In this document: piece after piece, positions 4,810 to 25,436 of the stretch
How the letters are laid out: every line of letters starts with the position of its first letter
How positions within the stretch are numbered: the stretch's first letter is position 1
Assembly: GCA_022616275.1 (NCBI GenBank)
Contig: JAKEFB010000025.1
Span: forward strand, 1 to 39,985
Length of the DNA stretch: 39,985 nt
From: Chloroflexota bacterium
Lineage (GTDB): Bacteria; Chloroflexota; Anaerolineae; Promineifilales; Promineifilaceae
Direction of reading: 5' to 3'
Notes under the pieces: generated by a model
Told to the model about the DNA's origin: nothing
The model's input: only the letters and a program-made list of their open reading frames with translations
Databases searched by the model: none
Position numbers and translations under genes: made by a program

Positions 4810-4830
4810 CTTCTGACCGTATCGGAAGGT

Positions 4831-9651: not shown

Positions 9652-9662
9652 AATAACGTTAT

Positions 9663-11345
9663 ATGGGCACAGATCCCCTGGTTGGCAGGCACTTTGGCAA
9701 TTACGTTGTCCAGGAACTCCTGGGATGTGGCGGTATGGGATGCGTTTACTACGCCAGACATCGTCACCTGGACGTTGACGCGGCCGTCAAAGTGATTGAG
9801 ACCACGGCCCAGGACCAATCGGATTATTCCCGGCGATTTAAACAGGAAGCCCGCAACATTTTCCGGCTCAAGCATCCCCATATTGTTGACTATTACGAGT
9901 TTGGCGTCACTGACAATCTACACTACCTGGTCCTCGAATACGTTGACGGCGGCGACCTGGCCTGGGCCCTGGAAGAATACAGGCGCCGTGGCGAAGTAAT
10001 GCCTGTCGAGGCTATCGTTCGGGTGATGGAGCAGATAGGCAGCGCCCTGGATTACATTCATGGCCGGGGTATCATTCATCGCGATGTCAAACCTTCAAAC
10101 ATTTTGCTCGATAAGCTCGGGCGAGCCGTTCTGACCGATTTTGGCCTGGCCTGGAACGTGTTAGAGGACACACAAACCCATGTTTTTGGCACTGCCCACT
10201 ACGTTGCCCCGGAGCAGGCTATTTCCTCGGCTCAGATCGTGGCTCAAAGTGACATCTATTCACTGGGTATCGTTCTTTACGAGATGTTGGCCGGGGTGCG
10301 GCCGTTTGAAGGCGACACACCCTTATCCATTGCCCTAAAGCACATTCACGAACCGCCGCCATCGCCTCGCCTGGTGAATCCTGATCTGCACCCGGCCCTG
10401 GAACAGGTTATTCTGCGCGCCCTGGTCAAAGAAGTGGCAGAGCGCTATCAAACCGCGGCCGCCCTGGTTGAGGATCTGCGCCGGGCGTTAGCCGAAGCGC
10501 AGCCCGAACGAGACACAGGCCGGCCCGCCGCCCCGGCCCCAACTCTGGTTAGGATTACCAGGCCCCGCCGGCCTCAGGCCATGCGCGAACACTCTTTAAA
10601 TGAGATTGTGCTGGAAAAACCCACGCTGGCGCGAGTACCTGCTAAGGAGGAGAACCCTCCGGCTGCGAAAGTGATACCTGTCCGCAGCCGCCAGCACTTT
10701 CTCGCCCTGGGAATCACTACCTGGTTGGGTGTGCTGTGCGCCGTGATGGTTGTGGCTCTTATCCGGGGAGCACAACTGCTGAGCCGGCCAGGACCGGCGC
10801 CAACGGTCATGGCTACCCCAGGCCAGGTAGAAATAGGAACGCTACAGGAACTGGCCGACGTTGACCTTCAGATTACGCCGTCTATCACCCCGTCAGAGAT
10901 CACGCTCACCGGCACAACGTTGCTGTTGGTCTCCACCCCGGTGGCCTCGCCAAACGTCCAGATGATCTACGATGATGGGGTAGTCACCCTGATCAATATA
11001 TCTGGTTCTCCGCTCTCATTGGCTGATGTTACTTTTAATCGTATATCTGATGCCAATACCGTCAGCGCCACTTTTTCGGCCGGCAACTGGGGACTGGCTG
11101 GCGGGCACGGCGGAGGCGCCCTGGCCGCTGGTAGCTGTGTTCAGTTGCGGCGTAGCGGCGCAACAGCGGCCAGGCCGGAGTCATGTATTTCCTTGCGTCG
11201 TTGGCTGGCCACCCGAAACCAGGAATGGTATTTCTGGATAGCGGAGGGGGATAGTTCCGGGTTTCAAATACTCCAGCGTGGCACCGTCATTTACACCTGT
11301 CGCCTGGCTGACGGCAACTGCTTGTTTTACCTGCCCCAACCCTGA
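9663..11345 (+). CDS. Receptor-type Ser/Thr protein kinase
   Basis: A 560-aa Hanks-type kinase. The catalytic domain (about 13-280) has Gly loop GCGGMG, Lys43, helix-C Glu62, HRDVKPSN (139-146), DFG (159-161) and an APE motif, so it should be active. A proline-rich juxtamembrane linker leads to one membrane helix (about 346-370). The extracellular part (about 430-560) has a beta-rich look (DDGVVTLINISGSPLSLADV) like the lamin-tail-like domains often attached to Chloroflexota kinases; this assignment is tentative. It follows the pseudokinase gene by 11 bp on the same strand and ends 5 bp from the end of the convergent gene. Confidence 0.9.
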   Translation: MGTDPLVGRHFGNYVVQELLGCGGMGCVYYARHRHLDVDAAVKVIETTAQDQSDYSRRFKQEARNIFRLKHPHIVDYYEFGVTDNLHYLVLEYVDGGDLAWALEEYRRRGEVMPVEAIVRVMEQIGSALDYIHGRGIIHRDVKPSNILLDKLGRAVLTDFGLAWNVLEDTQTHVFGTAHYVAPEQAISSAQIVAQSDIYSLGIVLYEMLAGVRPFEGDTPLSIALKHIHEPPPSPRLVNPDLHPALEQVILRALVKEVAERYQTAAALVEDLRRALAEAQPERDTGRPAAPAPTLVRITRPRRPQAMREHSLNEIVLEKPTLARVPAKEENPPAAKVIPVRSRQHFLALGITTWLGVLCAVMVVALIRGAQLLSRPGPAPTVMATPGQVEIGTLQELADVDLQITPSITPSEITLTGTTLLLVSTPVASPNVQMIYDDGVVTLINISGSPLSLADVTFNRISDANTVSATFSAGNWGLAGGHGGGALAAGSCVQLRRSGATAARPESCISLRRWLATRNQEWYFWIAEGDSSGFQILQRGTVIYTCRLADGNCLFYLPQP

Positions 11346-11350
11346 CGCTC

Positions 11351-11833
11351 TCATAAGCCTTGAATCGCCCAGCCCTGAGGCAGAATATACGTAACAGTCT
11401 GGGTCGTTAAGGCTTTGCCGCTGTGAATGGTGACCACCCCTGAACGAGGAATTTCTAGCCCGGCTGACATCTGGATTGTCTTCCTGGTAAGGTCAATAAC
11501 CACCAGTTCACAATCCCGGGGCCGTAACGCCTCGCTTTCCGTTACTTCGTCAATTGCCTGGAAGGCTGTTTCCAGGGGGTGGCCCCTGGCCCTGGCCAGC
11601 GAAATCGCATGGTGGATGAAAACAGGACCTTTTTGGCGCAGGGCTTTATCAAATTCCATTAACTCAGCCATCACGGCCAGCGTCAAACCTCGTTGGTATA
11701 CGTCGGTTGCCACCAGCAGCTCCCCAAGATTGGCCGGATTGACTGAGCAGCCGGCCACCAATCGCATCGTCGTATCTTCGCTTGCCAGAAAACTCACGGT
11801 CTGCTCGCCATCCTTGACCGTAACCCGAATCAT
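11351..11833 (-). CDS. Conserved-looking protein of unknown function (160 aa)
   Basis: I do not recognise the family. The protein is soluble, mixed alpha/beta, with no signal peptide or membrane helix. I chose ATG 11833 (peptide MIRVTVKDGEQTVSF) because an AGGA-type ribosome site precedes it. A longer frame reaches 11938 but its extra residues look like leader sequence. A promoter-like element at 11942-11988, nearly identical to that before the ABC exporter, points toward this gene. It is convergent with the kinase gene, with five bases between the two stop codons. Confidence 0.6.
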   Translation of the reverse strand: MIRVTVKDGEQTVSFLASEDTTMRLVAGCSVNPANLGELLVATDVYQRGLTLAVMAELMEFDKALRQKGPVFIHHAISLARARGHPLETAFQAIDEVTESEALRPRDCELVVIDLTRKTIQMSAGLEIPRSGVVTIHSGKALTTQTVTYILPQGWAIQGL

Positions 11834-11941
11834 AATATCCTGTCCCTTTCCTTCCTGTCTGCAGCAGATCCATCGGAGGCCAGTAGAAGATGGCGGCCAG
11901 GTCTGCAAAACCTCCTCCCCAGGCTGTGGCTCAGTCAACGT

Positions 11942-11988
11942 CTATTATGGCAAGGTAAACACATTTTGCCTATGCCTTTCACAAGGCA
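11942..11988 (-). promoter_or_regulatory. Promoter-like element, copy 2 (shared with 4595-4634)
   Basis: On the minus strand: TAGGCA, 17 bases, CATAAT, facing the 160-aa unknown gene. It is 29/31 identical to copy 1. The plus strand of the same space also offers TTGCCT-N18-TAAAAT (11966-11995) for the ATP-grasp gene, whose ATG at 12002 would then be close to leaderless. A TGCCTT/AAGGCA inverted repeat sits at 11973-11988. Confidence 0.5.
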
Positions 11989-12001
11989 GTAAAATACGCT
12001 T

Positions 12002-13312
12002 ATGCAGCCAGGACAGGTTATTGACCGAAGTACGTTGCCCCAGCGGGCGCTCCTGCTATTGACCGCCCGGACCTACCGCGCCCGGCCGTTCATCGAGGCG
12101 GCCAGCCGGCTCGGTATCGAAGTCGTCACGGCCGTGGAAATGCACCGCCAACTGGCCGAGTACTGGAACCACCCGCTCGGCCTGGAGTACAACGAGCCGG
12201 ACGAGGCGGCCCAGGCCATCGTCCAGTTTGCCGCCAAAACGCCGCTGGGCGCCATCCTGGCCGTGGACGACAGCGGCAGCCTGGTGGCCGCCAAAGCCAG
12301 CGCCGCCTTGGGCCTGCCCCACAACGCCCCGGAGGCGGCTGAAGCGGCCCGCGACAAGTACGCCATGCGCCGCTTGCTGGCCGCGGCCGGCGTCCCCTCC
12401 CCCCAGTCCACTCGCTACGAGTTTGAGGAACCCCCGGCCACCACCGGCCTGGAAGCCATTGCCACCCAGATCCCCTATCCCTGCGTCGTCAAGCCGCTCA
12501 ATTTGTGCGGCAGTCGGGGGGTGATCCGGGCCGACGACCCGGCCGAATTCGTGGCCGCAGCCGGCCGGCTGCAGCGGCTGCTCTACGCCGACGACCCCAC
12601 GCCCGACCCCAAACCATTCCTGGTCGAACAATTTGTGCCTGGTTTCGAGGTGGCCCTGGAAGGGATTCTCGACGACGGCCGCCTGCAACTGCTGGCCCTC
12701 TTTGACAAGCCCGACCCGCTGGATGGACCGTTCTTCGAGGAGACCATTTACGTCACCCCCTCCCGCCTGCCGGCCGAGACTCAGGCGGCCATCACCGCCT
12801 GCGCCGCCCGGGCCGCCGCCGCCCTGGGGCTGCGCGAGGGGCCAATGCACGCCGAGCTGCGCGTCAACGACCAGGGGCCGTGGATTGTCGAAGTGGCCGG
12901 CCGCTCCATTGGCGGGCTGTGCTCGCAGACGCTCCGCTTCAGCAGCGACGCCTCGCTGGAAGAGTTGATCCTGCGCCAGGCCTTTGGCCTGGAGATTCGC
13001 TCCTTTCGCCGGGAGCAGGCGGCCGGCGGGGTGATGATGATTCCCATTCCTGAAGCCGGCTTGCTGAAGAAGGTTGAGGGTTGTGAAGCGGCCGCGGCCG
13101 TACACCTGGTAGAAGGAGTGGAAATCACCGCCAGGCTCAACTACTCCCTCACCCCGCTGCCCGAGGGAGATAGCTACCTGGGCTTTATCTTTGCCCGCGG
13201 CGAGTCGCCGGCGGCTGTAGAAGCGGCCCTGCGTGAGGCCCACAGCAAATTGCGCTTTGAGATCGCCCCGGAAATTCCCCTGACACTGAAACAGTTGACA
13301 CTTGACACGTGA
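12002..13312 (+). CDS. ATP-grasp domain protein (carboxylate-amine ligase type)
   Basis: A 436-aa ATP-grasp enzyme that would join a carboxylate to an amine or thiol through an acyl-phosphate. A Rossmann-like N-terminal domain (about 1-110) is followed by the ATP-grasp fold: YPCVVKPLNLCGSRGV (Lys and Gly-rich loop), EQFVPGFEVALEG, and HAELRVN with IVEVAGRSIGG for the metal-binding Glu/Asn region. Similar proteins make dipeptides or act as L-amino-acid ligases; the substrate is unknown here. The last residues (LTLDT) and the stop are encoded by a heptamer array (13295-13322). Confidence 0.85.
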   Translation: MQPGQVIDRSTLPQRALLLLTARTYRARPFIEAASRLGIEVVTAVEMHRQLAEYWNHPLGLEYNEPDEAAQAIVQFAAKTPLGAILAVDDSGSLVAAKASAALGLPHNAPEAAEAARDKYAMRRLLAAAGVPSPQSTRYEFEEPPATTGLEAIATQIPYPCVVKPLNLCGSRGVIRADDPAEFVAAAGRLQRLLYADDPTPDPKPFLVEQFVPGFEVALEGILDDGRLQLLALFDKPDPLDGPFFEETIYVTPSRLPAETQAAITACAARAAAALGLREGPMHAELRVNDQGPWIVEVAGRSIGGLCSQTLRFSSDASLEELILRQAFGLEIRSFRREQAAGGVMMIPIPEAGLLKKVEGCEAAAAVHLVEGVEITARLNYSLTPLPEGDSYLGFIFARGESPAAVEAALREAHSKLRFEIAPEIPLTLKQLTLDT

Positions 13313-13322
13313 AACTTGATAC
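13295..13322 (+). repeat. Heptamer array at a gene junction
   Basis: Four heptamers in a row: TTGACAC, TTGACAC, GTGAAAC, TTGATAC. They encode the end and stop of the ATP-grasp gene. The fourth unit supplies the TTG start of the DUF1990 gene. Confidence 0.7.
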
Positions 13323-13891
13323 GAATTACCTGGCGTAAACCGGCGGACGATATGATTCGGGCGTTTCTGGCCGGGCAGGAGAGGGAGGAGCTGGCTTACC
13401 GGGAGGTGGGCCGGTCGCGTGCTGAACCGCCGGCCGGTTACCGGGTGGATCATCACCGCGTCCGGCTGGGGGCCGGGCCGGCCGCATTTGAAGCCGCCTG
13501 CCGGGCGCTGCGGCGCTGGGAGATGTTTCAATTGGGTTGGGTGGCACTGTGCTGGCCGAACGTACCGGTTGAGCCGGGCACAACGGTCGGTGTCCTGGTC
13601 CGGGCCTGGGGGCTGTGGTGGCTCAACGCCAGCCGCATCGTCTACGTGCTGGACGAGGAGCGGCGCTTTGGCTTTGCCTACGGCACACTGCCCGGCCACG
13701 CCGAGCGGGGAGAAGAGCGTTTTATCGTCGAGTGGCAGACCGACGACGAGGTCTGGTACGATTTGCTGGCTTTTTCCCGGCCGGGCCACTGGCTGGTCTG
13801 GTCCGGCTACCCGCTGGCCCGGCGCCTGCAGCGCCGTTTCGCCCGCGACTCATTGGCGGCAATGGTACGGGCGGTAAGAACTGGTGGATGA
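13316..13891 (+). CDS. DUF1990 (UPF0548) family protein
   Basis: A 191-aa protein of unknown function recognised by the family's conserved blocks: GYRVDHHRVRLG, the strong FGFAYGTLPGHAERGEERF segment, and the end LLAFSRPGHW with PLARRLQRRFARDS. I chose TTG 13316 because the resulting N-terminus (ITWRKPADDMIRAFLAGQ) resembles that of family members; ATG 13352 would cut it short. It begins four bases after the ATP-grasp stop and overlaps the YndJ-like gene by 8 bp. DUF1990 and YndJ-like genes are found side by side in other bacteria, from memory, and the function of the pair is not established. Confidence 0.85.
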   Translation: MIRITWRKPADDMIRAFLAGQEREELAYREVGRSRAEPPAGYRVDHHRVRLGAGPAAFEAACRALRRWEMFQLGWVALCWPNVPVEPGTTVGVLVRAWGLWWLNASRIVYVLDEERRFGFAYGTLPGHAERGEERFIVEWQTDDEVWYDLLAFSRPGHWLVWSGYPLARRLQRRFARDSLAAMVRAVRTGG

Positions 13892-14906
13892 AGAATTTGA
13901 CGCAAAGACGCGAAGACGCAAAGAAAATACTTTAACTTCGCGCCTTTGCGTCTTGGCGTCTAATCTGAGAGAAGCTCTGATCGGCGGAGTGATCTGGTTG
14001 GCCGTCCTATTCTGGTGGCGGCCGGGGTTGCTGGCCGAACGGTGGGCGGTTTTGTTGTTGCTGTTGGCGGCGCTGGTCCTGGCTCCGCTGGCTTTGCGGC
14101 TGGCCCGGCCGGCCGGGCCGGAGACATTGTGGCGCTGGATCGGCCGGCTGCAATTGCCAGCGGCGCTATTGCTCGTGGCTGCTTTTTTCCGTCCGGCCGG
14201 CCCTACGGCGGCGTTCCTGACCCTACCCTGGCTGTTGGCAACGGTGTTGGTGGCCCTGGCCGGTGGGCTGAATCTATGGGTGCGGCGGCTGGGGCCAGCG
14301 GAGGCGCTCTGCCTGGATGCCGGCCTGGTCTACCTGGCCATCGGCGGCGGCTGGGCGATGTTGGACCGGCTGGGGGCGCGGCCACTGGGCTTTGCCCCGG
14401 CCATCGTCTTGTTGACGGCCGTCCACTTCCACTACGCCGGTTTTGTCCTGCCGGTTCTGGCCGGGTTGGCCGGGCGCGCTGTCGGGGGTAGGACTGCCCG
14501 CCTGGCGGCCCTGGGCGTGATCGTGGGAGTGCTCCTGGTTGCGGCTGGCATTACGGCCACGCAATTGGGCCTGGGGCTGGCGCTGGAAAGCGCGGCCGCC
14601 TGGCTGACTGCCCTGGCCGGGTTACTGGTGGCCGGGTTATACTGGCGGCTGGCCGGGCAGCGGCCACGGCCGGCCCTGGCCCGGCTTTTGTGGGGTGTGG
14701 CTGCCCTCTCGCTGGCCGGCGGCATGGCCCTGGCAGCGCTGTACGGCTCGCGGGCTTACCTGGCGGTTGGCTGGCTGGATATTCCCTGGATGCGGGCGCT
14801 GCACGGCTCGCTCAATGCCCTCGGCTTTTCCCTGGCTGGCCTGCTGGCCTGGCACGTAGCCATGTTGCATGATCGGGCGGCGGCCGGTGTATACTTGACA
14901 AGGTGA
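13884..14906 (+). CDS. YndJ-like polytopic membrane protein
   Basis: A 340-aa protein that is almost wholly hydrophobic, with about 9-10 predicted helices. The segment TAVHFHYAGFVLPVLAG is the hallmark of the YndJ family. Function is unknown. The frame opens with GTG 13884, overlapping the end of the DUF1990 gene. The first 28 or so residues (DAKTRRRKENTLTSRL and on) are polar and are encoded by an inverted octamer repeat (13899-13960), so the authentic start may lie further in, near the first helix. Base composition is very GC-rich with many GGCCGG strings. Confidence 0.78.
   Translation: MDEEFDAKTRRRKENTLTSRLCVLASNLREALIGGVIWLAVLFWWRPGLLAERWAVLLLLLAALVLAPLALRLARPAGPETLWRWIGRLQLPAALLLVAAFFRPAGPTAAFLTLPWLLATVLVALAGGLNLWVRRLGPAEALCLDAGLVYLAIGGGWAMLDRLGARPLGFAPAIVLLTAVHFHYAGFVLPVLAGLAGRAVGGRTARLAALGVIVGVLLVAAGITATQLGLGLALESAAAWLTALAGLLVAGLYWRLAGQRPRPALARLLWGVAALSLAGGMALAALYGSRAYLAVGWLDIPWMRALHGSLNALGFSLAGLLAWHVAMLHDRAAAGVYLTR
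13899..13960. repeat. Inverted repeat built of ACGCAAAG-type octamers
   Basis: Left arm 13899-13923 (GACGC AAAG/GAAG units) and right arm 13936-13960 are reverse complements at 21 of 25 positions, with a 12-base A/T-rich spacer. The array is translated as the N-terminus of the YndJ-like frame if the GTG start is used. Confidence 0.8.
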
Positions 14907-14951
14907 TAAGGTGAAAATAAGCAGGTTTTGCTGGATGGCTAAAGGGGCGAT

Positions 14952-17621
14952 TTGCCAGAGCGAAAAGAGTTCGGCCGCCGAACTCCGGTTTCGCCTCGCC
15001 CTACAAAACTTGGGGTTGATAAGGTGCTGAGAGAGTTAATTGTCGAGCACTTTTCGAGGGGGGAGTTGGTTACGCTTTGCGCAGACCTGGGTATGGACTA
15101 TGACGATCTGCCAGGCGCCAGCAAACCGGAGAAGATCCGGGAGCTGATCGCCTACATGGAGCGGCGCGGCCGGCTGTCCGACCTGTTCGACCAGCTTAGC
15201 CGGAGCCGCCCCCAGGTCAACTGGAAGCACCCCGGCCGGGCAACCGTCCGCATTGCGCCTGAAGTCAGGGGCTTCCTGGAAGCGACAGGCTATGAAATTT
15301 TAGATGAGTTGTGGGGAGAAAGACACGTCATTTTCCAGACGCAGCTTGTCTTGCCAGGCGAATACCTCAAGCGGTGGCTTTTTTGTAAGGACCTGGGGGT
15401 GACGCTGAACGACGTTGGCCTGCTGGAAGAGCAGATTGCCACACTGCGCGGTTCAAAGGGGTGGATGATTACTGAGGCCGACGTGATTGACCCGGATGCT
15501 CGCCAACGCATTGAGGAAAATCCTGATGCTACCGCCCACACGTTAGCCATTTTTTACCGCCAGACGCTGCAGTGCGACGCCTATTTGCAGAAGGAGTTAA
15601 TTGCTGGTTCGGCAGAGATCGAAAAGTATTGGGTTGACCTGAATTGCCGGGTAGAAGGGGAAGGCCGCTTTGATTTGGTCACCTACGTAGATACCTGGCT
15701 GAAGGCGGCGGCCGGGCGCCAACTGGCTCTGCTGGGGGATTTTGGCACCGGGAAGACCTGGTTTTGTCGCTACTACGCGGCCAGGCTTGCCAGGCGATAC
15801 TTAAAGAATCCCGAGGAAAACCGCATTCCCGTGCTGATCTCTCTGCGGGAATACACCACGGCCCTTAACATTGAACAACTGATTACCAGCACGCTGGTAG
15901 ACGTATACGACATCCGGCTGCCCGGCGGGTTTAAGACCTTCATGCACCTGAACCAGTGGGGGCGCCTGCTCTTAATCTTTGATGGCTTTGACGAGATGGA
16001 GCAGCACATGGAATACACGGTTGCCCTGCGAAACTATCGCGAGATAGCCCGGACGATGGCCGATGCCAGTAAAATGATCCTGACCTCGCGCCCACTTTTT
16101 TTTGAAGACGCCCAGCAGTTGCAGGCAGTTTTGCAGAGTTCGGGTAACCAACTGCGTTTTGAAACGCTTTCCCTGTGGGAGCTGGACGACGAACAAATCC
16201 AGGAATTGCTGCGCAAACGGGCGCCTGAAAAATGGCAGACGTCCTGGGAGCAGGTCAGGCAGTTCGCCCGGCTTAAAGACCTGGCCTCCCGGCCGGTGAT
16301 GACCCATATTATTGCCGAAACGTTGCCGGATATTGACGACCCCAGCCGGGTTGACAGCGCGGCGTTGTACAGAATCTACCTGGACAGGTGGATTGAAGAG
16401 GCCTGCCGACTGGAAGCGGCCGGCGCCGCCAACGTCAAGGACGACGTCTTTGCCTTTGTCCGCGACCTGGCCTGGGAATTGTTTAACTCGCGGACGACGA
16501 AGACGATTTCTTTGTCCGAACTCCGCGAACGCACGGGGGACAGAGCTAATTCCTCTGAGTTTAACCTGATTTTGCGCCAACTACTTGTCCATGATAAGCA
16601 GACCGGCAGTTACACCTTTCCTCACGTTTCTTTCATTGAGTACTTTGTCGCCGACGTTGTCGTGGAGGGCTTGCTGTCAGGAGACCGGCAGAGGTTGTTT
16701 GTCTTTACGCCGACAAGCGGGGTCCTGGGTTTCTTGACCGATATGATGCGGGGCCGCCCTGACGTTCAGCAAGGTCTTCTCAACGCCTTGTGGGAAGTTG
16801 AAACGAGCGAACAGATGGGCAGCATGGTTGCTTTATTGGCCCGCCTGGACGAAAAGCAACGACAGGGCAGCGTCAACAGAGAAGGTAGAGGGAACCCGGT
16901 ACGGCCGGTTATTAAAGCATTACAAACCGTCAGCCCCGCGAGCGCTGGCGCTTCCCCGACCTGGCTTCCTCAGCACGTGGTCGTGGCTCTGGGTAAGGAG
17001 GAGTTCCTTGAGGAAGTTACCAGGGAATTGTCGCCAGAGGCGCCACCCCAGGTCCGTTACTTTTTATTAGAATTATGGGGGAGTCCGGCAATTGGGGCGA
17101 ACCGGTCCCTGCAAGCGCTCAACCAGGCTATCTACCATGATCCAGACACCAGGGTGCGCCTCCACGCTGTACAGGTGTTGGGCCAGCGACAGGGAAAGGA
17201 AGAGGTAGAGATGCTCATTGAGACGATTGGCAACCAGGCCATGCCTGGCCCCATCAGGCAGGCCTGCCTGGACAGCATTCGTGTTAGCGCCCTGACGGCC
17301 GAGTCAGCCCACCATTTGTTACACGTTTTGCACCAGGTCATTGCTCACGAACCAGATGCCAGCGGCCTGAGGGCGGACTGTATCACCAAGCTGGCCGAGT
17401 ATGATTCTCGCGAAGCATTGGAACCACTCATTCCCATTCTAAAGGATTTCGAGCACAAGCTCTGGCTCGTTTCGGCCAGCATCCTATCCCTTACCAGCGT
17501 GGCCAGCCTGGCCGACGACATTGAAAAAGAGGTTATCTTGCCCAATCAGCAGGATGCTGGCCTGGCTCGCGAGATAGCCCACCTGAGAAGAGTTGTGGCC
17601 ACGATCAGGAAGAGTATTTAG
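14952..17621 (+). CDS. NACHT-family STAND NTPase with N-terminal effector-associated and nuclease-like domains
   Basis: An 889-aa signal-transducing NTPase. Residues about 22-88 match an effector-associated death-like domain of the EAD7 type (LRELIVEHFSRGELVTLC ... DLPGASKPEKIRELI). Residues about 95-215 resemble an Mrr-like restriction-endonuclease fold (WLFCKDLGV ... GSKGWMITEADV), though the usual E/QxK reads FCK. The NACHT core has Walker A GDFGTGKT (262-269), Walker B LLIFDGFDE (340-348) and ILTSRP (376-381). The C-terminal third (about 690-860) looks like HEAT-type helical repeats that could sense a ligand. The start is TTG 14952 after AAAGGGGCG. The next gene begins 12 bp after the stop. 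Such proteins are typical of prokaryotic immunity. Confidence 0.85.
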   Translation: MPERKEFGRRTPVSPRPTKLGVDKVLRELIVEHFSRGELVTLCADLGMDYDDLPGASKPEKIRELIAYMERRGRLSDLFDQLSRSRPQVNWKHPGRATVRIAPEVRGFLEATGYEILDELWGERHVIFQTQLVLPGEYLKRWLFCKDLGVTLNDVGLLEEQIATLRGSKGWMITEADVIDPDARQRIEENPDATAHTLAIFYRQTLQCDAYLQKELIAGSAEIEKYWVDLNCRVEGEGRFDLVTYVDTWLKAAAGRQLALLGDFGTGKTWFCRYYAARLARRYLKNPEENRIPVLISLREYTTALNIEQLITSTLVDVYDIRLPGGFKTFMHLNQWGRLLLIFDGFDEMEQHMEYTVALRNYREIARTMADASKMILTSRPLFFEDAQQLQAVLQSSGNQLRFETLSLWELDDEQIQELLRKRAPEKWQTSWEQVRQFARLKDLASRPVMTHIIAETLPDIDDPSRVDSAALYRIYLDRWIEEACRLEAAGAANVKDDVFAFVRDLAWELFNSRTTKTISLSELRERTGDRANSSEFNLILRQLLVHDKQTGSYTFPHVSFIEYFVADVVVEGLLSGDRQRLFVFTPTSGVLGFLTDMMRGRPDVQQGLLNALWEVETSEQMGSMVALLARLDEKQRQGSVNREGRGNPVRPVIKALQTVSPASAGASPTWLPQHVVVALGKEEFLEEVTRELSPEAPPQVRYFLLELWGSPAIGANRSLQALNQAIYHDPDTRVRLHAVQVLGQRQGKEEVEMLIETIGNQAMPGPIRQACLDSIRVSALTAESAHHLLHVLHQVIAHEPDASGLRADCITKLAEYDSREALEPLIPILKDFEHKLWLVSASILSLTSVASLADDIEKEVILPNQQDAGLAREIAHLRRVVATIRKSI

Positions 17622-17633
17622 GGTAACTGCAAT

Positions 17634-19886
17634 ATGACAATTTTCCTTACTTCCACCTCCACCCGCCGCAAGGCGCTGTTGCAGCAGATTGGATTTCGCG
17701 AGCAAGAAGATTTCTTACAGGCCGACGTGCCGGTTAATTACGACTTCCATAAAGACAAACAAGAACTGAGCCTGGCCGAGGTAAAACAGAAGGTCGTCGA
17801 AGCTGCCCGGCTGAAAGTAACCAGGGCCGACGAAGCCAGGTTATTGCGAATTTACCACCAGCTTCCTCAGCAGACGGTCATCGTTGGGGCCGACACCGTC
17901 GTGTTTTTTGCCGGCCGGGTCCTGGACCGCCCTCTCCTGTTCAACCCATCTTTTGCCACGCCAGATCAGCTCAAACAGGGCAAGGAGGAGGCCAGGCGGA
18001 TGTTGTCTGCTTTGAAGGGCCAGGTCTTCCACGTCGTGACCGGGCTGGTCGTCGCCCAGGGGGACAATTTACAGCAGGAGCGCTCTTGCTGCGTGGTGAC
18101 TGAAGCAAAGATGAAGGAATTCAGCGACAACGACATCGAACGCTACATTCAAACCGGGGAGCCGCTCGATAAAGCGGGCGGCTTTGGCATCCAGGAGCGA
18201 GGTGTCATTCTATTTGAAAAGATAAAAGGGAGTTACAGTAACATCGTTGGGCTGCCGCTGGTTGCTTTTGTGGAACTCTTGCGCGATCCATTATTTGCCG
18301 GGCGAGTCCACTTCCGGCTGCACGACGCGGACACAGTGGACAACACGCCCGTTACTGAAGGTGTGCCTGAGTTAAGGGCCGTATCGGTTGGCGACATCAA
18401 CTACGACCTCGTCTACAGCAAGTTTCCGGTAGGCTTTTTTGCCAACCTTCGCCCTCCCGGCGAACACGTTCAGGGCCAACTATACCGGGGAACCGGGGGA
18501 ACGGCCGCTATTTTTGCCACGCGCGCCCGTGAGGTCGGCTTCAAACAATGCTCGGTTTTGGGCGTTATCGGCGGCGACGCTCTGGGCAAGTTTATTGAAC
18601 AGGAACTCCACCAGAAAGGAATCCGCACGCTGCTGCCGGCCGATTACAACCGGTTGACCGGCGTCACCCTGGTCTTGCGCGACCAGGGTGAGAAGGATAC
18701 CCTGATCACCCTGACCGATTCGCACCAGGCGCTTTCAGAAGACGACGTCAACATGGCCAGGGCTGAGATTGAGAAGGCGCACGTCGTCTTTATCTCCGGC
18801 TACTGTTTAAGCGATCCGGATCGGCGGAACGCGGCCCTGCGGGTCATGGAGCTATCTCAACGGGCAGGCGGGCTGGTCGTTCTGGATGTACACGTGGACA
18901 TGGACAAAGCGCTCGACTTCCAATCGTTTACGGCGATGGCCCATAACCGGGTTGACGTCATGGTGGCCGAGATAGCGACGGTGTTCGGTTGGCTCAACGT
19001 GGAAGGGCGACCAGAAGACGATTGGGCGTTTGTCAAAGAGAAAATAGCGCCTGCCTTGCAGCAACAATTCTCCACAGTTTTTTTGCGGACTTCGAGCTAT
19101 TCCCACGAAATCATCGCTTCGCCGGCCGGTATTTCCGGCCCGCACCTGTTAGACTATTCGCAGCGCCGGCCGGAAGAAAGGCTGGGTTACGGCGACGAGC
19201 GAACGGTGCAACACCTGTACGAGTTTATGTCCCCCCGGCTGTTGTTGGCTTCCAAATCTCCCCGGCGGCTGGAGCTTTTGCGGCAAATTGTGGCCGACAA
19301 TAAGATCGAGATATTGGTCAGCAAGCACCAGGAAGAGAGGCGCCCGGACGAGGCGCCTGAAGCGCGGGTGAAGCGCCTGGCCCTGGAAAAAGCACAGCGG
19401 GTCCTGGCCAGGCGGGGCGAGTTCAGCCCCAGCATTGAGATTGTCGTCGGGGCTGACACCGAAATTGTCGTGGACGGCGAGGCCATTGGCCAGCCGGCCA
19501 ACGACGCCGAAGCCCGGCAGTTGTTACAGCGCCTGTCAGGACGGACGCACAGGGCTTTAACGGGGCTGGCGCTGATCAGCGCCACCGGTGAAAAGGCAGT
19601 TATAGACTGCGTCTGTACCCACGTGAAGTTTAAGCAACTGTCCTCTGAGGAGATTGACCAGTACGTGATGTCAGGCGAGCCGATTGGCAAAGCAGGCGCC
19701 TATGGCATCCAGGGGAAGGGCGCTCTCTTCATTGAGGAAATAGCGGGCAGTTACAGCAACGTCGTCGGCCTACCGCTGGAACGCCTGTCTGAAATCCTGG
19801 ACCGGGAGTTTGGGCTACCCATCTGGAATATAGACAGGGTATCCAGTTGGCATTTCTCCCATCACGGCCGGAGGCATCATGAGTGA
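17634..19886 (+). CDS. Maf-PfkB-Maf fusion protein (nucleotide pyrophosphatase / kinase / pyrophosphatase)
   Basis: A 750-aa triple fusion. Residues about 1-215 are a Maf domain: the STSTRRKALL start motif, GADTVV with Asp87, HVVTGL, YIQTGEPLDKAGGFGIQ and GSYSNIVGLPL. Residues about 247-530 are a PfkB/ribokinase domain with GGT...NxA-type motif 1 (GTGGTAAIFATRAREVG), GGDALG and catalytic loop GYGD (518-521) in place of the usual GAGD. Residues about 532-730 are a second complete Maf domain (LLLASKSPRRLELL, GADTEI, YVMSGEPIGKAGAYGIQ, SYSNVVGLPL). Known Maf proteins hydrolyse dTTP, UTP or modified nucleoside triphosphates; PfkB enzymes phosphorylate sugars or nucleosides. It overlaps the next gene by 8 bp. 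The normal length of Maf is about 190-200 aa. Confidence 0.9.
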   Translation: MTIFLTSTSTRRKALLQQIGFREQEDFLQADVPVNYDFHKDKQELSLAEVKQKVVEAARLKVTRADEARLLRIYHQLPQQTVIVGADTVVFFAGRVLDRPLLFNPSFATPDQLKQGKEEARRMLSALKGQVFHVVTGLVVAQGDNLQQERSCCVVTEAKMKEFSDNDIERYIQTGEPLDKAGGFGIQERGVILFEKIKGSYSNIVGLPLVAFVELLRDPLFAGRVHFRLHDADTVDNTPVTEGVPELRAVSVGDINYDLVYSKFPVGFFANLRPPGEHVQGQLYRGTGGTAAIFATRAREVGFKQCSVLGVIGGDALGKFIEQELHQKGIRTLLPADYNRLTGVTLVLRDQGEKDTLITLTDSHQALSEDDVNMARAEIEKAHVVFISGYCLSDPDRRNAALRVMELSQRAGGLVVLDVHVDMDKALDFQSFTAMAHNRVDVMVAEIATVFGWLNVEGRPEDDWAFVKEKIAPALQQQFSTVFLRTSSYSHEIIASPAGISGPHLLDYSQRRPEERLGYGDERTVQHLYEFMSPRLLLASKSPRRLELLRQIVADNKIEILVSKHQEERRPDEAPEARVKRLALEKAQRVLARRGEFSPSIEIVVGADTEIVVDGEAIGQPANDAEARQLLQRLSGRTHRALTGLALISATGEKAVIDCVCTHVKFKQLSSEEIDQYVMSGEPIGKAGAYGIQGKGALFIEEIAGSYSNVVGLPLERLSEILDREFGLPIWNIDRVSSWHFSHHGRRHHE

Positions 19887-20784
19887 CGCTTATGACATGG
19901 TCGTCATGGGCGACGTCAACCTGGATTGGTACGGCCGCCAGTTGTTATCTTTTCCGTTTTCCGAGCTGGTGACCAACGGCGTGATTGAATGGATGCAGCT
20001 TGACGAAGTGCCAGGCGGGAGCGGGCTGAACTTTGCTCGCTTTGCCCAGGAGGCAGGCTACCGGCCGCTGCTGCTCGGTAAGATAGGGGGAGACCCGGCC
20101 GGCCGGTTCATTTACGAATGGCTCCAGCAATACGGCCTGGAGACAGGTATTTCTGCGGACACGCGATTCAGCACGGGCAAGGCTTTCATCGTCCGTGACC
20201 GGAATGACATTCGTTTCCTGGTGAACAATATACCCAACGCCAACAGTGAATTAACCGTTGAAGATGTCGAGCAATTTGCTGTGGTTTTGCGTTCGTGCCG
20301 GGTGTTGTACATCTCCGGTTACTGCCTGATGAACCCGGAAGCGCCGCGAACGAAGGCCGCGCTACGGGCTATGGAACTGGCCCGCGAAGGAGAGCAAGCC
20401 CACCTTGTCTTTGACATTGTGCCCCACCAGTTTCACAAAATTTACCGGCTGCATGAATTTCGCACGTTGACCGATGGGGTAGACGTTTTAATTTCCGAGG
20501 TGGCCACCATGCGCCGTTTTCTCCAGCTTGGCGATCCGGGCGAGGTGGTGACGCGAGCGATGGCTGAAGAGGTTGTGGAGCATTTTTCAAAGTTCTACAA
20601 TCGTCTCATATTACGGTACGGTCCGTCCGGCTGCGACGAACAGATTATCTGGGATAGCAAGAATAGAGAGTTGATCTGGCAGGAAACTGAACACCGTCTC
20701 CTCCAGGATAAACGAGGGTATGGAGATAAACTCGCCCTCCAGGTATTGAGAGATGTCTTTAGACTCGCGCCGGCGGGTTTATAG
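19879..20784 (+). CDS. PfkB-family carbohydrate/nucleoside kinase
   Basis: A 301-aa ribokinase-fold enzyme. Motif 1 is PGGSGLNFARFAQEAG (45-60), then GKIGGDPAGRF. The catalytic loop is GYGD (280-283) with catalytic Asp283, sharing the rare Tyr with the kinase domain of the upstream fusion. Both also carry ISGYCL and a VDVLISEVAT / VDVMVAEIAT segment, so they are paralogues of one subfamily. GGAGG (19870-19874) precedes ATG 19879, which overlaps the fusion gene by 8 bp. Its end overlaps the glycosidase gene by 32 bp. The substrate cannot be told from sequence; a nucleoside is attractive given the Maf domains. Confidence 0.85.
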   Translation: MSDAYDMVVMGDVNLDWYGRQLLSFPFSELVTNGVIEWMQLDEVPGGSGLNFARFAQEAGYRPLLLGKIGGDPAGRFIYEWLQQYGLETGISADTRFSTGKAFIVRDRNDIRFLVNNIPNANSELTVEDVEQFAVVLRSCRVLYISGYCLMNPEAPRTKAALRAMELAREGEQAHLVFDIVPHQFHKIYRLHEFRTLTDGVDVLISEVATMRRFLQLGDPGEVVTRAMAEEVVEHFSKFYNRLILRYGPSGCDEQIIWDSKNRELIWQETEHRLLQDKRGYGDKLALQVLRDVFRLAPAGL

Positions 20785-22132
20785 TTTTGGAAAATTACGC
20801 CGGTTGTTGCCCGGCCTGAATACAGCCCTGGCTTTCATTCTAGGCGCCGTTTTCTGGGCGGGGTATAGTTACCTGCGCCGGCTGCTAGGGCAACCGCTCC
20901 TGGGGGCTCTGTCCGTTTCCGGCGAGGTCAAGGAACACCTCAGCGTGGTGGACCAGGCCGTCTTGATCGCCTCGGCTAACGTGCGGGCGGTGATCGAGGA
21001 GCGGCAACTGCCGGACGGCCGGCGCAAATTGATTCTTGGCGCCGGGCTGCGCAACTTCCGCGAGCCGTGGGCCAGGGACTTTGGCTTCGCCAGCTTTGGC
21101 CTGGTGGAGCTGAACGAGGTCCGGGTAATTCGGGAAACTTTGGAAGTTTTTCTGCGATTCCAGACGGCCGAAGGTCAATTCCCAGTCAAGGTTTACTCCA
21201 CCGGGGTCATCAGCCGCTATCTGCATGCCCTGCTCGGCCGGCAGCAACCGACGGTCGCGCCGCTGCGGCCGAAGTACATGACCGGCCACAATACCGTTTC
21301 TCTGGACGGTAACGCGCTGCTGGTGATTGCTGCTCTCAATTACCTGAGACGTTTCCAGGACGACCCCTTTTGCCACACTCACTGGGGAGCGCTGAAGCAG
21401 GCGCTCCACTGGCTGGAGGAGCAGGCCCTGGAGGAAGATGGTCTGCTGCACCAGGGCCCGTACACCGATTGGGCCGACACCATTGCCCGCGCCGGCTGCA
21501 TCCACTACACCAATGTGTTGTACTGGAAGGCAATGAGTGACTTTGCCGCCGACGCCGTCAAGTACGGCTACGAGGAAGACCACCTCTATTTCCAGGCCAG
21601 AGCAGCCCAACTGAAACAGGCGATTAACGCCTATTTCTGGCGAGAAGCTCTTGGGTATTATCTGACCAGCCACCGCTTTGATATGCTCAACAGCGACGGT
21701 AACTTGCTGGCTATTGCCTGGGGACTGACCGATTCATCGCAGGCCGGCGCCATCCTGGATAAAATGGACGCCGATGGCCTGGCCGAGCCGGTGCCCACCC
21801 GGGTGACCAACCGGTTGTATGAATGGCAATATATTGCTCTGGAAAACCGGCTGGGTGGATTGCCCCACTACCACAGCTCGGCCGCCTGGCTCTGGTTGGG
21901 GGCCTGGCACGTCATTGCCCTGGCCCGCACCGGCCGGCTGGACGAGGCCCGCTGTATCCTGGAGCGTCTCTGCCACGTGGTGGTGCGCGACCGGGTAGTC
22001 CACGAGGTGTATGATACCCACGGCCGGCATCTGTCTACTTTCTGGTACACTTCAGAAGCGCCGTTGACCTGGAGCGCAGCCATGGTCGTCCACGCCGAGG
22101 CCGTGTTCCAGCGCGCCCAGGTGAAGCAATAA
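20753..22132 (+). CDS. Membrane-anchored six-hairpin glycosidase (GH100/amylo-1,6-glucosidase-like)
   Basis: A 459-aa protein. After a short basic stretch there is one hydrophobic segment (about 20-42, NTALAFILGAVFWAGY), then an (alpha/alpha)6-barrel-type domain. NFREPWARDFGFASFGL, TGHNTVSLDGNALL, GPYTDWADT and NSDGNLLAIAWG resemble GH100 neutral invertases and glycogen-debranching C-terminal domains. It should cleave a glycosidic bond in an oligosaccharide. The ATG at 20753 overlaps the kinase gene by 32 bp; TTG 20804 is a less likely later start. It may belong more to the following glycosyltransferase than to the NACHT operon. Confidence 0.78.
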   Translation: MSLDSRRRVYSFGKLRRLLPGLNTALAFILGAVFWAGYSYLRRLLGQPLLGALSVSGEVKEHLSVVDQAVLIASANVRAVIEERQLPDGRRKLILGAGLRNFREPWARDFGFASFGLVELNEVRVIRETLEVFLRFQTAEGQFPVKVYSTGVISRYLHALLGRQQPTVAPLRPKYMTGHNTVSLDGNALLVIAALNYLRRFQDDPFCHTHWGALKQALHWLEEQALEEDGLLHQGPYTDWADTIARAGCIHYTNVLYWKAMSDFAADAVKYGYEEDHLYFQARAAQLKQAINAYFWREALGYYLTSHRFDMLNSDGNLLAIAWGLTDSSQAGAILDKMDADGLAEPVPTRVTNRLYEWQYIALENRLGGLPHYHSSAAWLWLGAWHVIALARTGRLDEARCILERLCHVVVRDRVVHEVYDTHGRHLSTFWYTSEAPLTWSAAMVVHAEAVFQRAQVKQ

Positions 22133-22135
22133 GAG

Positions 22136-22183
22136 GTTATTAGTTATTGGTTATTGAAGGACCAATAACCAATAACCAATTAC
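22136..22183. repeat. Perfectly ordered inverted heptamer array (GTTATTG family)
   Basis: Three direct units (GTTATTA, GTTATTG, GTTATTG), a six-base spacer AAGGAC, and three inverted units (CAATAAC, CAATAAC, CAATTAC). It fills the whole space between the glycosidase stop and the next ATG, leaving no normal Shine-Dalgarno. Confidence 0.85.
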
Positions 22184-22189
22184 TAAAAC

Positions 22190-23458
22190 ATGAAAAGTCG
22201 CCTGCACATTGCCCTTTACAGCAACGCCTACCACCCGGTGATTAGCGGTGTGGTGCGGTCGGTGGCTGCTTTTCGCCAGGCACTCACGGCGATGGGGCAT
22301 AACGTCTTTGTCTTTGCCCAGGGGGCCACTGATTACGAAGATGAAGAGCCGTTTATTTTTCGTTACCCGGCGTTGGAGCTGCCTTTGACCCACAACATTC
22401 CCTTGCCGGTTCCTATTTCGGCCTTCATTGACCGGGTCATTCCCCACCTGAAGTTGGACGTCATTCACAGCCACCACCCGGCGTTATTGGGCCAGACGGC
22501 CGTCAACAAGGCGGAAGAACACCAGTTGCCGCTGGTTTTTACTTACCATACCCGTTACGAGGAATACAGCCATTATCTGCGTCTCCTGCCCCAGGAGTTG
22601 ATGAAGAAAGTGATTAAACGCTGGGTAGGGGATTATATGAGTCGCTGCCAGCACGTAGTCGTGCCGGCCGGCAGTATCCAACGCATGTTGCAAGAGGAGT
22701 ACGGCATTGTCGAGCGAGTGACGGTGCTTCCCACCGGTATTGACCTCACTCCTTTTCAGCGCGCCGACGGCCGGGCTGTCCGCCAGCAGCAGGGCTGGGG
22801 CCAGGACCGGGTGATTATCTCGGTCGGCCGCCTGGAGCCGGAGAAAAACTGGCCCACACTGATCACGGCCGTGGCCCGGGTGATGGCCAGCTACCCGGAT
22901 CTGCGGCTGGCGCTGCTGGGCGGCGGTGACGAGCGGCCAGAACTGGAGGCGCTGGCCGGCGAGCTGGGGGTGGCCGAACGGGTGTATTTCGCCGGTCCGA
23001 TACCGATGAGCCAGGTGCCGGCTTACCTTAAAGCAGCCGACCTCTTTTGCTTTGCTTCGATAACGGAGACTCAAGGGCTGGTGACGATGGAGGCGATGGC
23101 CGCTGGGTTGCCGGTCGTAGCCGTGCGGGCGACTGGAACGGCCGACGTGATCGAGGACGGCATAGATGGCTTGCTGGCCGATAACGACAGCGAGGCCCTG
23201 GCTGCGGCTTTGGGCCGTATCCTGGCTGACGACAACCTGGCTCAGGCCCTGCGGCAAGCGGCCGGGCGAAAGGTGGCTACGTTTGCCATCGAGAAACAGG
23301 CCCAAAAGCTGGCCGAGGTTTACCACCAGGCTATGGCCGATAAGGCAGCCGGCCACTCTGTCAGTGTGGACGTGGCGAAGCCTATCTTCACTTTTGACTG
23401 GCAGCAATGGCTCAGGCCGCCCGACGAATCAGACCGGGACGACGCTGTTGCGGCTTAG
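22190..23458 (+). CDS. Glycosyltransferase family 4
   Basis: A 422-aa GT-B retaining glycosyltransferase. The N-terminal acceptor domain has SNAYHPVISGVVRS and IHSHHPALLG; the C-terminal donor domain has VGRLEPEKNWPTLI and the E-x7-E motif Glu293/Glu301 (ETQGLVTME). The layout resembles diacylglycerol glucosyltransferases and PimB/mannosyl transferases, so a glycolipid product is possible. The start ATG 22190 follows an inverted heptamer repeat and no clear ribosome site is seen. The 3' end overlaps the extended 3' end of the convergent selenoprotein gene. Confidence 0.9.
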   Translation: MKSRLHIALYSNAYHPVISGVVRSVAAFRQALTAMGHNVFVFAQGATDYEDEEPFIFRYPALELPLTHNIPLPVPISAFIDRVIPHLKLDVIHSHHPALLGQTAVNKAEEHQLPLVFTYHTRYEEYSHYLRLLPQELMKKVIKRWVGDYMSRCQHVVVPAGSIQRMLQEEYGIVERVTVLPTGIDLTPFQRADGRAVRQQQGWGQDRVIISVGRLEPEKNWPTLITAVARVMASYPDLRLALLGGGDERPELEALAGELGVAERVYFAGPIPMSQVPAYLKAADLFCFASITETQGLVTMEAMAAGLPVVAVRATGTADVIEDGIDGLLADNDSEALAAALGRILADDNLAQALRQAAGRKVATFAIEKQAQKLAEVYHQAMADKAAGHSVSVDVAKPIFTFDWQQWLRPPDESDRDDAVAA

Positions 23459-24946
23459 CCGGCCAACCTGGCCAGCGGTAGGCTCCGCTCAGCAGAACCA
23501 ATCTTCGGTCAGGCGCGGTGGGGGAGCGGCCGGCCGGGCTGGGGGCGACCAGGCCGGCGCCGGCCGGCCGGCTACCTGGTAGGCCAGGCGCTCAACGGCG
23601 GCAAAGGTCTGGTAGGGATCAGCCTGGGGGTTGTTGGCGGCCGCCTGGGCGACGGTCGCTACCTGCTCCTGCAACTGGTCCATACATGCGTCGGGGTGAC
23701 GCCAGGCGTAGCCGAAGTTGGCCGACTCCAGCGGGCCGAAGAGGGAGATTGGAGATTGGAGATTGGAGATTAGAGATTGGTTCATCTCTAATCTCCAATC
23801 TCCAATCTCTGTTAATAGGGCGCTGCCCGGCGGAACAAGCAATCTCAGGGCCAGTTGCACGGCCGGCACGTGGGGAATGAGGCCACGGGTGCGAATCCAG
23901 GCCAGCATGGCCAGGTAATCGTCCAGCGTCGTCCAAGGGGTGAAGGCGACCCAGGTAGGCTGGACGGGTAGGTCAGCGGCTTCCAGGATTTCCAGGGCCA
24001 GGTCCAGGTCGGCGGCGGTATGGCCCTTCTCTAATCGAGCCAGGACTTCGTCGCTGAGGGACTCAAAGGCCGAGACGACAAAGGCTGCCCCCAACCGGCG
24101 CAGCTCAGGGAATACATGGCGCTTTTCCAGGATGTGTTCGACTTTGGTCGTGAAGTCAAAGGTGACTTCGGGGAACTCGGCGTGCAGGGCGCGGGCGATT
24201 TTCAGGACGTGGCCAGGGCCGTTGAGAAAATCGGGATCGCCAAAGGTAATGTGGCCGGCCCCGGCGGCCACCTGCTGGCGGATGTCGGCCAGGACCGTCT
24301 CGGCCGGGACGACGAAGAAGCGGCCGCCGTAAACGGGGACAATGGGGCAATGGCGGCAGGTGTGCAGGCAGCCCCGGCTGGCTTCGACGTAACCGGCGGC
24401 CACGTGGCGGCCGCCGTGGACAAAGTGGGCGTATTGGTCCAGCGCCGGCAGCGCCGCCCGGTTGGGCATGGGCAGCGCCAGACGCTCCAGGTGGGGATGG
24501 CCACGCCCGGCCAGCGTGGTTACGCCGGGCACGGCGCTGGCGTCCCCGCCGGCGGCCAGGGCCTGGACCAGGGCCAGCAACGGCGCTTCATACTCGCCAG
24601 CGATGACCGAATCGGCCAGTGGCCGGCCGGCCAGATCATCGTCGCCCAACAGGTAATCGGCGTTCAACCAGGCGTAGAGCCCGTAAAAGCAGAGGTGGGC
24701 CTGGGGATTGAGGGTGCGCACCCGGGCGGCGGCCTCGACCCCCAGACGAAGGGCGGTGTGCATGGGGACGGCAATGCCCACAAAAGACGCCTGGACTACG
24801 GCTTCTTCGGGGAAAGCCTCAATGGAGAGGTCCCGGCCCTCGGCTGGGAAACCGGCCTCTTGCAGGACGGTGAGCGGCCAAGCCAGGCTGAGCGGCTGGT
24901 GGCCCAGCTCGTAACAGGCCAGCAGGAGGATGCGGCCGGCGTTCAT
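23429..24946 (-). CDS. CUAEP-tail radical SAM selenoprotein with B12-binding-like domain
   Basis: The N-terminal part (about 1-150) resembles a cobalamin-binding fold, and the radical SAM core carries C193, C197 and C200 (CLHTCRHC). The frame meets a TGA at 23491-23489, but the codons around it read Trp-Phe-Cys-TGA-Ala-Glu-Pro, exactly the tail that names the CUAEP/CCAEP-tail radical SAM (seleno)protein family. I therefore read TGA as selenocysteine (residue 486) and extend to the next stop at 23431-23429 (505 aa). A hairpin follows at once (23450-23488). ATG 24946 overlaps the yggX stop (ATGA). An in-frame heptamer palindrome encodes about residues 379-402. The reaction is unknown. The extended 3' end overlaps the convergent GT4 gene by 30 bp. 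Confidence 0.85.
23450..23491 (-). promoter_or_regulatory. SECIS-like hairpin downstream of the selenocysteine TGA
   Basis: After the TGA (23491-23489) and 12 bases, a 7-bp stem GCUGGCC/GGCCGGC (one G-U pair) closes a five-base loop AGGUU at 23469-23465. Outer GCGG/CCGC pairing extends it. Bacterial SECIS elements lie directly after the UGA and present a GGU-type apical loop, as in E. coli fdhF; both features fit. Confidence 0.6.
23745..23809. repeat. Inverted GAGATTG heptamer array inside the radical SAM gene
   Basis: Five direct units (GAGATTG x3, GAGATTA, GAGATTG; 23745-23779) face three inverted units (TAATCTC, CAATCTC, CAATCTC; 23789-23809). It stays in frame and is translated as a polar segment (EIGDWRLEMNQSLISNLQS). 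The same heptamer occurs at 37633-37660. Confidence 0.85.
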
Positions 24947-25301: not shown

Positions 25302-25429
25302 GGTAATTAAGTAATTGGTAATTGTTTTATAGGTACGACTATAGTACCTTTCAGGGTAGTGTCAAGAGTATACTGAGAAGGTCTAAAAACCTCTCATAAA
25401 GAATTACTTAATTACCCAATTACCAATTA
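25302..25429. repeat. Inverted GGTAATT repeats flanking a promoter region
   Basis: A left arm of GGTAATT-type units (25302-25324) is mirrored by a right arm (25402-25429). The 77 bp between them hold the yggX promoter. The right arm ends seven bases before the ATG of the formyltransferase gene and leaves it without a Shine-Dalgarno. Confidence 0.75.
25338..25365 (-). promoter_or_regulatory. Sigma-70-type promoter of the yggX-radical SAM operon
   Basis: On the minus strand TTGACA (25365-25360), 16 bases, TATAGT (25343-25338). A palindrome GGTAC-N7-GTACC (25332-25348) covers the -10 and is a candidate operator. Confidence 0.6.
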
Positions 25430-25436
25430 TTGCCAT

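Follow-up and report, generated by a model that had tools for sequence, protein, structure and literature searches.

What, if anything, joins the three tandem genes at positions 14952 to 20784 of contig JAKEFB010000025.1 from a Chloroflexota bacterium (assembly GCA_022616275.1)? The window analysed here is the entire 39,985-base contig (C127), which belongs to a genome of 8.53 Mb in 309 contigs that is 98% complete and 5.5% contaminated. The genes code, in order, for a NACHT-type STAND NTPase, a Maf-PfkB-Maf fusion and a second PfkB protein (PfkB2). A first-pass annotation made from the sequence had delimited these genes, with a 12-nt gap between the first two and an 8-nt overlap (ATGAGTGA) between the last two, and the open frames agree with it:

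14952..17621, + strand: NACHT STAND NTPase, 889 aa, TTG start (Pfam, Walker A/B, homologues)
15027..15212, + strand: EAD7 adaptor domain of the NACHT protein (4.8e-22 in the own-genome scan)
17634..19886, + strand: Maf1-PfkB1-Maf2 fusion, 750 aa (Pfam)
19879..20784, + strand: PfkB2, 301 aa (Pfam; paralogue of PfkB1)

We tentatively propose that the Maf-PfkB module is an altered or pseudo-enzymatic sensor, or a guarded partner, of an acquired NACHT cassette. Such a role is favoured by two features of the module: the catalytic Lys82 is kept in neither Maf domain, and the donor site is remodelled in PfkB1 and PfkB2 alike. As to whether the NACHT and Maf-PfkB proteins are functionally linked at all, we place the matter at about one half.

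The NACHT protein itself is firmly identified as an immune-type STAND switch of EAD7-NACHT-HEAT architecture. It displays an EAD7 domain (aa 26-87; Pfam 1.7e-21), an inactive-restriction-endonuclease-like stretch (102-197), a NACHT domain (257-424; 5.4e-10, with 39.8 bits against a curated cut-off of 26.7) and HEAT repeats with their best stretch at 693-762 (HEAT_2, 3.1e-9); the Walker A (GDFGTGKT) and Walker B (LLIFDGFDE) motifs are intact. Pfam agrees with the domain make-up given by the first-pass annotation for the three genes (EAD7, nuclease-like, NACHT and HEAT; two Maf and two PfkB). The 'nuclease-like' part corresponds to NA-iREase1, which scores under its cut-off in the window protein (0.0026; 18.2 of 27 bits) and over it at the same place in three of the four homologues. 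These homologues lie at four places in three genomes, besides the protein itself, among 397 genomes of the class (E <= 1e-35); here and below, scoring took in the 2 to 17 top-ranked first-look candidates of each genome, so that more divergent copies could escape detection, those of NACHT in particular. The N-terminal domains of the homologues are SIR2_2 (L121), DUF4062 (L125), Mrr (L126) and TIR (L127), the last followed by an Mrr-type stretch and a NACHT domain just under the cut-off. It is at this effector position that the EAD7 of the window protein stands. PADLOC models match the N-terminal end of three of the four (the exception being L125), and the window protein has one weak PADLOC match (mad8 ATPase, 0.0011). 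The effector-type N-termini and PADLOC matches of the homologues support the earlier assignment of the protein as an immunity switch. A plasmid search with the NACHT core retrieved 15 records at 24-32% identity: seven of these are from Nostoc, Calothrix, Acaryochloris and Annamia, and one match is annotated as a caspase family protein. Compared by sequence with solved NACHT chains, the protein gave no match, and a single designed repeat protein was returned at 7.6e-4. As a new find, the NACHT protein is a member of an already known kind of immune protein.

Where would its effector reside? EAD7 is grouped with adaptors whose primary task is effector recruitment, in the sections of PMC7159879 drawn on here. 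A scan of the own genome places EAD7 over the cut-off in 22 distinct frames, the window's included (24 of 26 rows). Ten of the 21 others were typed: TIR, SIR2, CHAT, PNP, receiver, TCAD9, nSTAND1 and EAD1 are each found once, two have EAD7 alone, and none has Maf or PfkB. No EAD7-bearing effector adjoins the NACHT gene, the sole EAD7 on the window's contig being the NACHT gene's own. Since EAD7 here holds the effector site of the homologues, and EAD7 effectors occur genome-wide, the effector of the switch is probably recruited in trans, encoded elsewhere, and need not be Maf or PfkB. As a separate observation, one protein of the same genome (L101; G000:C158, 1474-3192, + strand) carries a PNP_UDP_1 phosphorylase domain (1.9e-15) joined to EAD7 and is a candidate nucleotide-processing EAD7 effector.

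The fusion comprises Maf1 (about aa 1-220), PfkB1 (about 240-521) and Maf2 (about 533-724); Pfam recovers two Maf stretches (328.5 bits together) flanking one PfkB. Maf2 is 44% identical to YhdE over 188 aa. In the Maf tree it groups with YhdE, Bacillus subtilis Maf and an alphaproteobacterial Maf (support 96/94), outside the clade of 17 Mafs from the bacterium's own family (99/97); Maf1, on a long branch, is placed insecurely, and a sister relation of Maf1 and Maf2 lacks tree support. Six residues (S10, R13, E33, K52, D70 and K82 of YhdE) are conserved across the Maf family, according to the portions of PMC3899018 used here, and are complete in 17/17 aligned Mafs of the bacterium's family, a subset of the 45 found, namely the stand-alone proteins with fetched DNA. 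In the fusion this catalytic signature is incomplete in both domains: S10, R13, K52 and D70 are present in each, and the Lys82 position is occupied by Arg in Maf1 and by Gln in Maf2.

It could be argued that the domains are nonetheless active effectors, which the NACHT protein unleashes on infection to destroy or convert deoxythymidine triphosphate (dTTP), UTP or modified nucleoside triphosphates (NTPs). The three marks of the YhdE subfamily, R12, T71 and Q153, are all found in both Maf1 and Maf2, along with Asp70, Arg13 and Lys52, and the substrates reported for YhdE-type Mafs in the parts of PMC3899018 consulted are dTTP, UTP and modified pyrimidine NTPs. The same parts, however, record that changing Lys82 to Ala abolished activity in 5/5 Maf proteins tested, and the window's domains have both lost this residue. 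Further, EAD7 provides the switch with a separate effector route, and, as noted above, neither Maf nor PfkB was seen among the typed EAD7 proteins. Hence, we consider an active effector role unlikely.

The PfkB domains are comparably unusual. PfkB2 matches Pfam PfkB at 2.1e-18, and PfkB1 at 2.8e-13 over profile positions 4-170 of 302 only. The two are 30% identical (alignment A1) and share the same unusual motifs, for which reason their origin by duplication is well supported at the sequence level; a duplication of the Maf pair is without such support. The fusion and PfkB2 read as a doubled (Maf-PfkB)x2 unit, the last part of which is encoded by a gene of its own that overlaps the fusion gene. 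Both PfkB domains keep the catalytic Asp of the GXGD motif, which takes the form GYGD; the NXXE motif is replaced by EIAT or EVAT; and the catalytic Asp is followed by just 14 residues in PfkB1 (up to the Maf2 core) and 18 in PfkB2, versus 37-62 in ten comparators. These comparators are Escherichia coli RbsK and 9 of 11 PfkB proteins from the class (one short open frame and one with an internal stop were left out; three tails were counted by eye, the script having chosen a later GXGD-like match); 10/10 have Ala as the X of GXGD and 8/10 have NXXE. Thus, of the marks of ATP-dependent PfkB proteins, both domains lack the small X, the NXXE and most of the C-terminal adenine-side segment.

This raises the possibility of a pyrophosphate (PPi)-coupled enzyme, in which Maf releases PPi and PfkB uses PPi or another small donor on a sugar or nucleoside, tied either to the downstream sugar genes or to the clearance of modified nucleotides, with no requirement for NACHT. 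In the portions of PMC5931981 that bear on this, the X of GXGD is small in ATP-dependent members and Arg in PPi-dependent ones, and three basic residues mark the PPi type, one of them standing two places ahead of GXGD. The Tyr of GYGD is not small, the residue two places before is R in PfkB1 (RLGYGD) and K in PfkB2 (KRGYGD), and most of the adenine-side C-terminal segment is gone, all of which would suit such an enzyme. However, when compared with the PPi-type TM0415, only the basic residue ahead of the motif is matched: V/I stands at the position of K171 and Tyr at that of R232; with NXXE lost and Maf activity doubtful, a PPi-coupled enzyme appears improbable. We conclude that the PfkB domains are either re-specialised for another donor or pseudo-enzymes. 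A model of PfkB2 from a two-row alignment (predicted local distance difference test score, pLDDT, 57) matches ribokinase-fold chains in Foldseek, with 2qcv first, which at this pLDDT is to be read as 'ribokinase-like' at most; a model of the fusion made without an alignment (pLDDT 35) is unusable. Taken together, the double loss of the Maf lysine, the altered PfkB motifs and the short C-termini make a nucleotide-depleting enzyme less likely, and the earlier proposal that these enzymes make or remove a nucleotide, like the idea that they deplete one, finds no support in these active sites.

The sensor or guarded-partner reading may be spelled out as follows: an acquired three-gene cassette of immune type would sit upstream of an older pair of sugar genes. 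On activation, its NACHT protein would oligomerise and recruit one or more TIR, SIR2, CHAT or phosphorylase effectors via EAD7-EAD7 contacts. The Maf-PfkB module would be a binder of nucleotides or sugar ligands with little or none of the usual turnover; as a sensor or guarded bait, it may signal infection-induced changes in the nucleotide pool to the NACHT protein. A more specific version is a guard system, in which the NACHT protein watches a catalytically altered Maf-PfkB decoy that mimics enzymes of the nucleotide pool, such that phage enzymes or phage-modified nucleotides trip the switch and EAD7 calls TIR, SIR2 or CHAT effectors; this we hold to be rather a long shot. A host chaperone process seems to be what bNACHT25 guards (sections of PMC12169576).

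The physical linkage of the genes is close. NACHT frames number about 36 in this genome (from 37 rows, two of which share a frame); besides the window's own, 18 of the 35 others were surveyed for neighbours using mechanical gene calls. Seventeen of these 18 have a visible downstream neighbour, none of which lies on the same strand nearer than 48 nt; the 12-nt downstream gap is therefore unique among the 18 NACHT genes, the window's and 17 others, for which such a neighbour is visible. Several points nevertheless weigh against a functional partnership. An interaction of the NACHT and Maf-PfkB proteins would be hypothetical, and the cluster comes from one locus of one genome, with no second instance in any collection searched. 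Tight adjacency need not mean a shared function, as two of the 18 surveyed NACHT genes closely trail unrelated housekeeping genes: at L137 (8973-10379, - strand) a gap of 3 nt separates the NACHT gene from a beta-CASP RNase gene ahead of it, and at L138 (8334-9143, - strand) the NACHT gene shares 4 nt with a preceding ABC-2 permease gene. Among so many NACHT genes (some 36 frames), one odd neighbour is not improbable. The only one of the four NACHT homologues with a downstream gene in view, L125, is followed by a gene for a 334-aa protein with no Pfam family and no Maf-PfkB. Nor are the active sites wholly against activity: the K-to-R change in Maf1 is conservative, Maf1 and Maf2 both retain Asp70, Arg13 and Lys52, and PfkB1 and PfkB2 the catalytic Asp, all of which leaves room for Maf or PfkB activity. 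The apparent absence of Glu33 from Maf1 concerns an uncertain position beside an insertion; as the YhdE chain 4p0e has Ala at 33, the references for this residue are B. subtilis Maf and the 17 Mafs of the bacterium's family.

The survey also brought up a neighbourhood of separate note, L130 (G000:C160:1-20000; genes at 1504-2556, 2760-5492 and 11613-16190, all on the - strand), in which an RVT_1 gene (4e-15) lies 203 nt downstream of a NACHT gene, near a 1525-aa CHAT-NACHT-HEAT-peptidoglycan-binding protein; the RVT_1 gene may belong to a diversity-generating retroelement that targets conflict genes.

A check for conserved pairs of NACHT and Maf-PfkB genes, as advised by the first-pass annotation, was run across collections and gave no second instance. 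The fusion has no orthologue other than itself in a phylum sample of 400 genomes (E <= 1e-60), which may overlap the class sample. A phylum sample around a Sneathiella genome gave 0/398 (E <= 1e-45), an empty answer that is uninformative without a known match. One scan of genome contigs retrieved just an irrelevant alphaproteobacterial Maf; none of 90 plasmid and 21 phage records covers 80% of the query, the best 15 of the former and best 10 of the latter each matching at one Maf-sized place; and viral contigs returned nothing, whether the query was the fusion or the PfkB alignment. PfkB2 recovers only the genome's own two copies among 57 genomes of the order (E <= 1e-15). A two-row PfkB profile matches 12 of the 397 class genomes (E <= 1e-12), the other 11 by partial ribokinase-type hits (2.5e-15 to 8e-13) with no orthologue among them. 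On the fusion, PfkB2 and the downstream gene for a glycoside-hydrolase-like (GH) protein, PADLOC gave no match at E <= 0.01.

With no second genome found to carry the cluster, chance adjacency is a strong rival: an ordinary EAD7-NACHT gene would lie beside an unrelated, fast-evolving Maf-PfkB module of metabolic or house-cleaning function, which may have replaced the native Maf. In support of such a replacement, the Maf domains of the fusion are the only ones found in this genome, which yielded no stand-alone Maf, although 45 of the 52 other genomes of the family match Maf at E <= 1e-8 in open frames of 142-363 aa (46 of 53 with itself). The native gene may have been lost, replaced, or be absent from the assembly. 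The number of NACHT frames, the housekeeping genes directly ahead of other NACHT genes and the overlap of PfkB2 with the downstream sugar genes point the same way. Set against this are the singular 12-nt gap, the low guanine-cytosine (GC) content common to the three genes, their lack of a detected family orthologue and the loss of Lys82 from both Maf domains, which makes a plain replacement of a housekeeping Maf doubtful. We regard chance neighbourhood as quite possible, though short of probable. It had been argued that Maf-PfkB homologues common among housekeeping genes without a NACHT neighbour would reduce the link to chance; no other Maf-PfkB fusion was found, and the link itself stays with a single locus.

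Beyond the first-pass annotation, the run of genes extends past PfkB2:

20753..22132, + strand: glycoside-hydrolase-like protein (Bac_rhamnosid6H / MGH1-like; Pfam), 32-nt overlap with PfkB2
22190..23458, + strand: GT4 glycosyltransferase (Pfam), partner of GH in relatives

Homologues of GH at 50-65% identity are found in 19 other genomes of the family; GT4 adjoins it in 8/19, and in two others the contig stops at that point. By comparison, the other 52 family genomes have no orthologue of NACHT (E <= 1e-40), the fusion or PfkB2 at the thresholds used, and homologues of NACHT, Maf and PfkB are seen in 0/19 of the fetched stretches around GH, 17 of which show sequence upstream of it. Directly upstream of GH in typed relatives are an FAD oxidoreductase (L047, L048), an alpha/beta hydrolase (L054), RmlC (L056, L058) and SDR (L063). 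As GH and GT4 recur in relatives with no NACHT, Maf or PfkB beside them, the three-gene cassette seems to have been placed ahead of an older GH-GT4 pair. GH is probably the older resident, and possibly co-transcribed with the cassette; co-acquisition of NACHT, the fusion and PfkB2 is likely. The GC content of these three genes is 0.54-0.57, versus 0.67 just upstream and 0.61 just downstream. On its own this is a weak argument for an acquired cassette, and the equally low values (0.54-0.58) of other genes of the contig, at 6.7-12 kb, count against it. Scans of 13800-23600 for sigma-70 promoters and terminators gave no more matches than in shuffles.

An artefact of assembly or gene calling, such as a chimeric contig, might be invoked given the orphan genes and a fragmented, possibly contaminated assembly. 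The open frames of 889, 750 and 301 codons, however, have a GC content at third codon positions (0.64-0.70) like that of the contig's other genes, and family members have counterparts of this contig's GH and GT4 at 50-65%, making an artefact highly improbable.

Some further features of the sugar genes and the window deserve mention. In seven relatives (L056-L062) a gene of 180-193 aa lies directly upstream of the GH homologue; the two that were typed (L056, L058) are dTDP-4-dehydrorhamnose 3,5-epimerase-like, which hints at a role of GH-GT4 in rhamnose-type glycans. An assignment of the GT4 gene to PF20706 (GT4-conflict, 5.3e-11) was rejected, since the ordinary GT4 family scores far better, at 2.6e-40, and relatives, too, have GH and GT4 side by side. 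Repeats of the AATAACCAATNAC type lie at 22136-22183, 25241-25253, 25311-25323, 25411-25430 and 27317-27329 (10 matches with <=2 mismatches, 1.08 expected); those between GH and GT4 form a 14-pair stem (22125-22200, minimum free energy -20.3 kcal/mol, z -5.1). At 4831-11345, a GT2 glycosyltransferase, a PMT-type glycosyltransferase and two Ser/Thr protein kinases are all encoded on one strand.

How bacterial switches related to the nucleotide-binding leucine-rich repeat receptors (NLRs) sense infection is largely open. If the link is true, the combination of NACHT with a dedicated nucleotide-binding pseudo-enzyme would be a direct case of pool sensing or decoy guarding. Plant NLRs are known to be paired with pseudokinase decoys, and a decoy guard, if true, would be their bacterial counterpart. 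If the link is due to chance, (Maf-PfkB)x2 would still be a new domain architecture, one whose active sites are altered.

The first-pass annotation knew of no described system of this composition, and none was found in the open-access literature searched. Nearest to it are four known groups. The bNACHT and effector-NACHT STAND proteins: these likewise have an N-terminal effector or adaptor, an inactive-restriction-endonuclease-like linker, NACHT with Walker A/B and C-terminal repeats; the window protein differs in having EAD7 for an effector, a weak PADLOC match only, and Maf-PfkB partner genes. The EAD-linked conflict systems of multicellular bacteria (eLife 2020, PMC7159879; eLife 2021, PMC8195603): these share the EAD7 adaptor, the STAND/NACHT NTPase and the genome-wide EAD7 set, whereas 'Maf', 'PfkB' and 'ribokinase' are absent from the main text of both papers. 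The YhdE-subfamily Maf pyrophosphatases (as far as covered in the sections of PMC3899018 drawn on): family membership by sequence, R12-T71-Q153, S10, R13, K52 and D70 are common to both; here Lys82 has become R/Q and two copies are fused with a PfkB domain. The PfkB/ribokinase family (IolC, KDG kinase, ribokinase, pseudouridine kinase, and TM0415 from the part of PMC5931981 used): the window's domains, for which no orthologue was found in the 397 class genomes, differ in GYGD, in EXXT for NXXE and in the short C-terminus; they share with it the N-terminal acceptor half, the GG motif and the catalytic Asp of GXGD.

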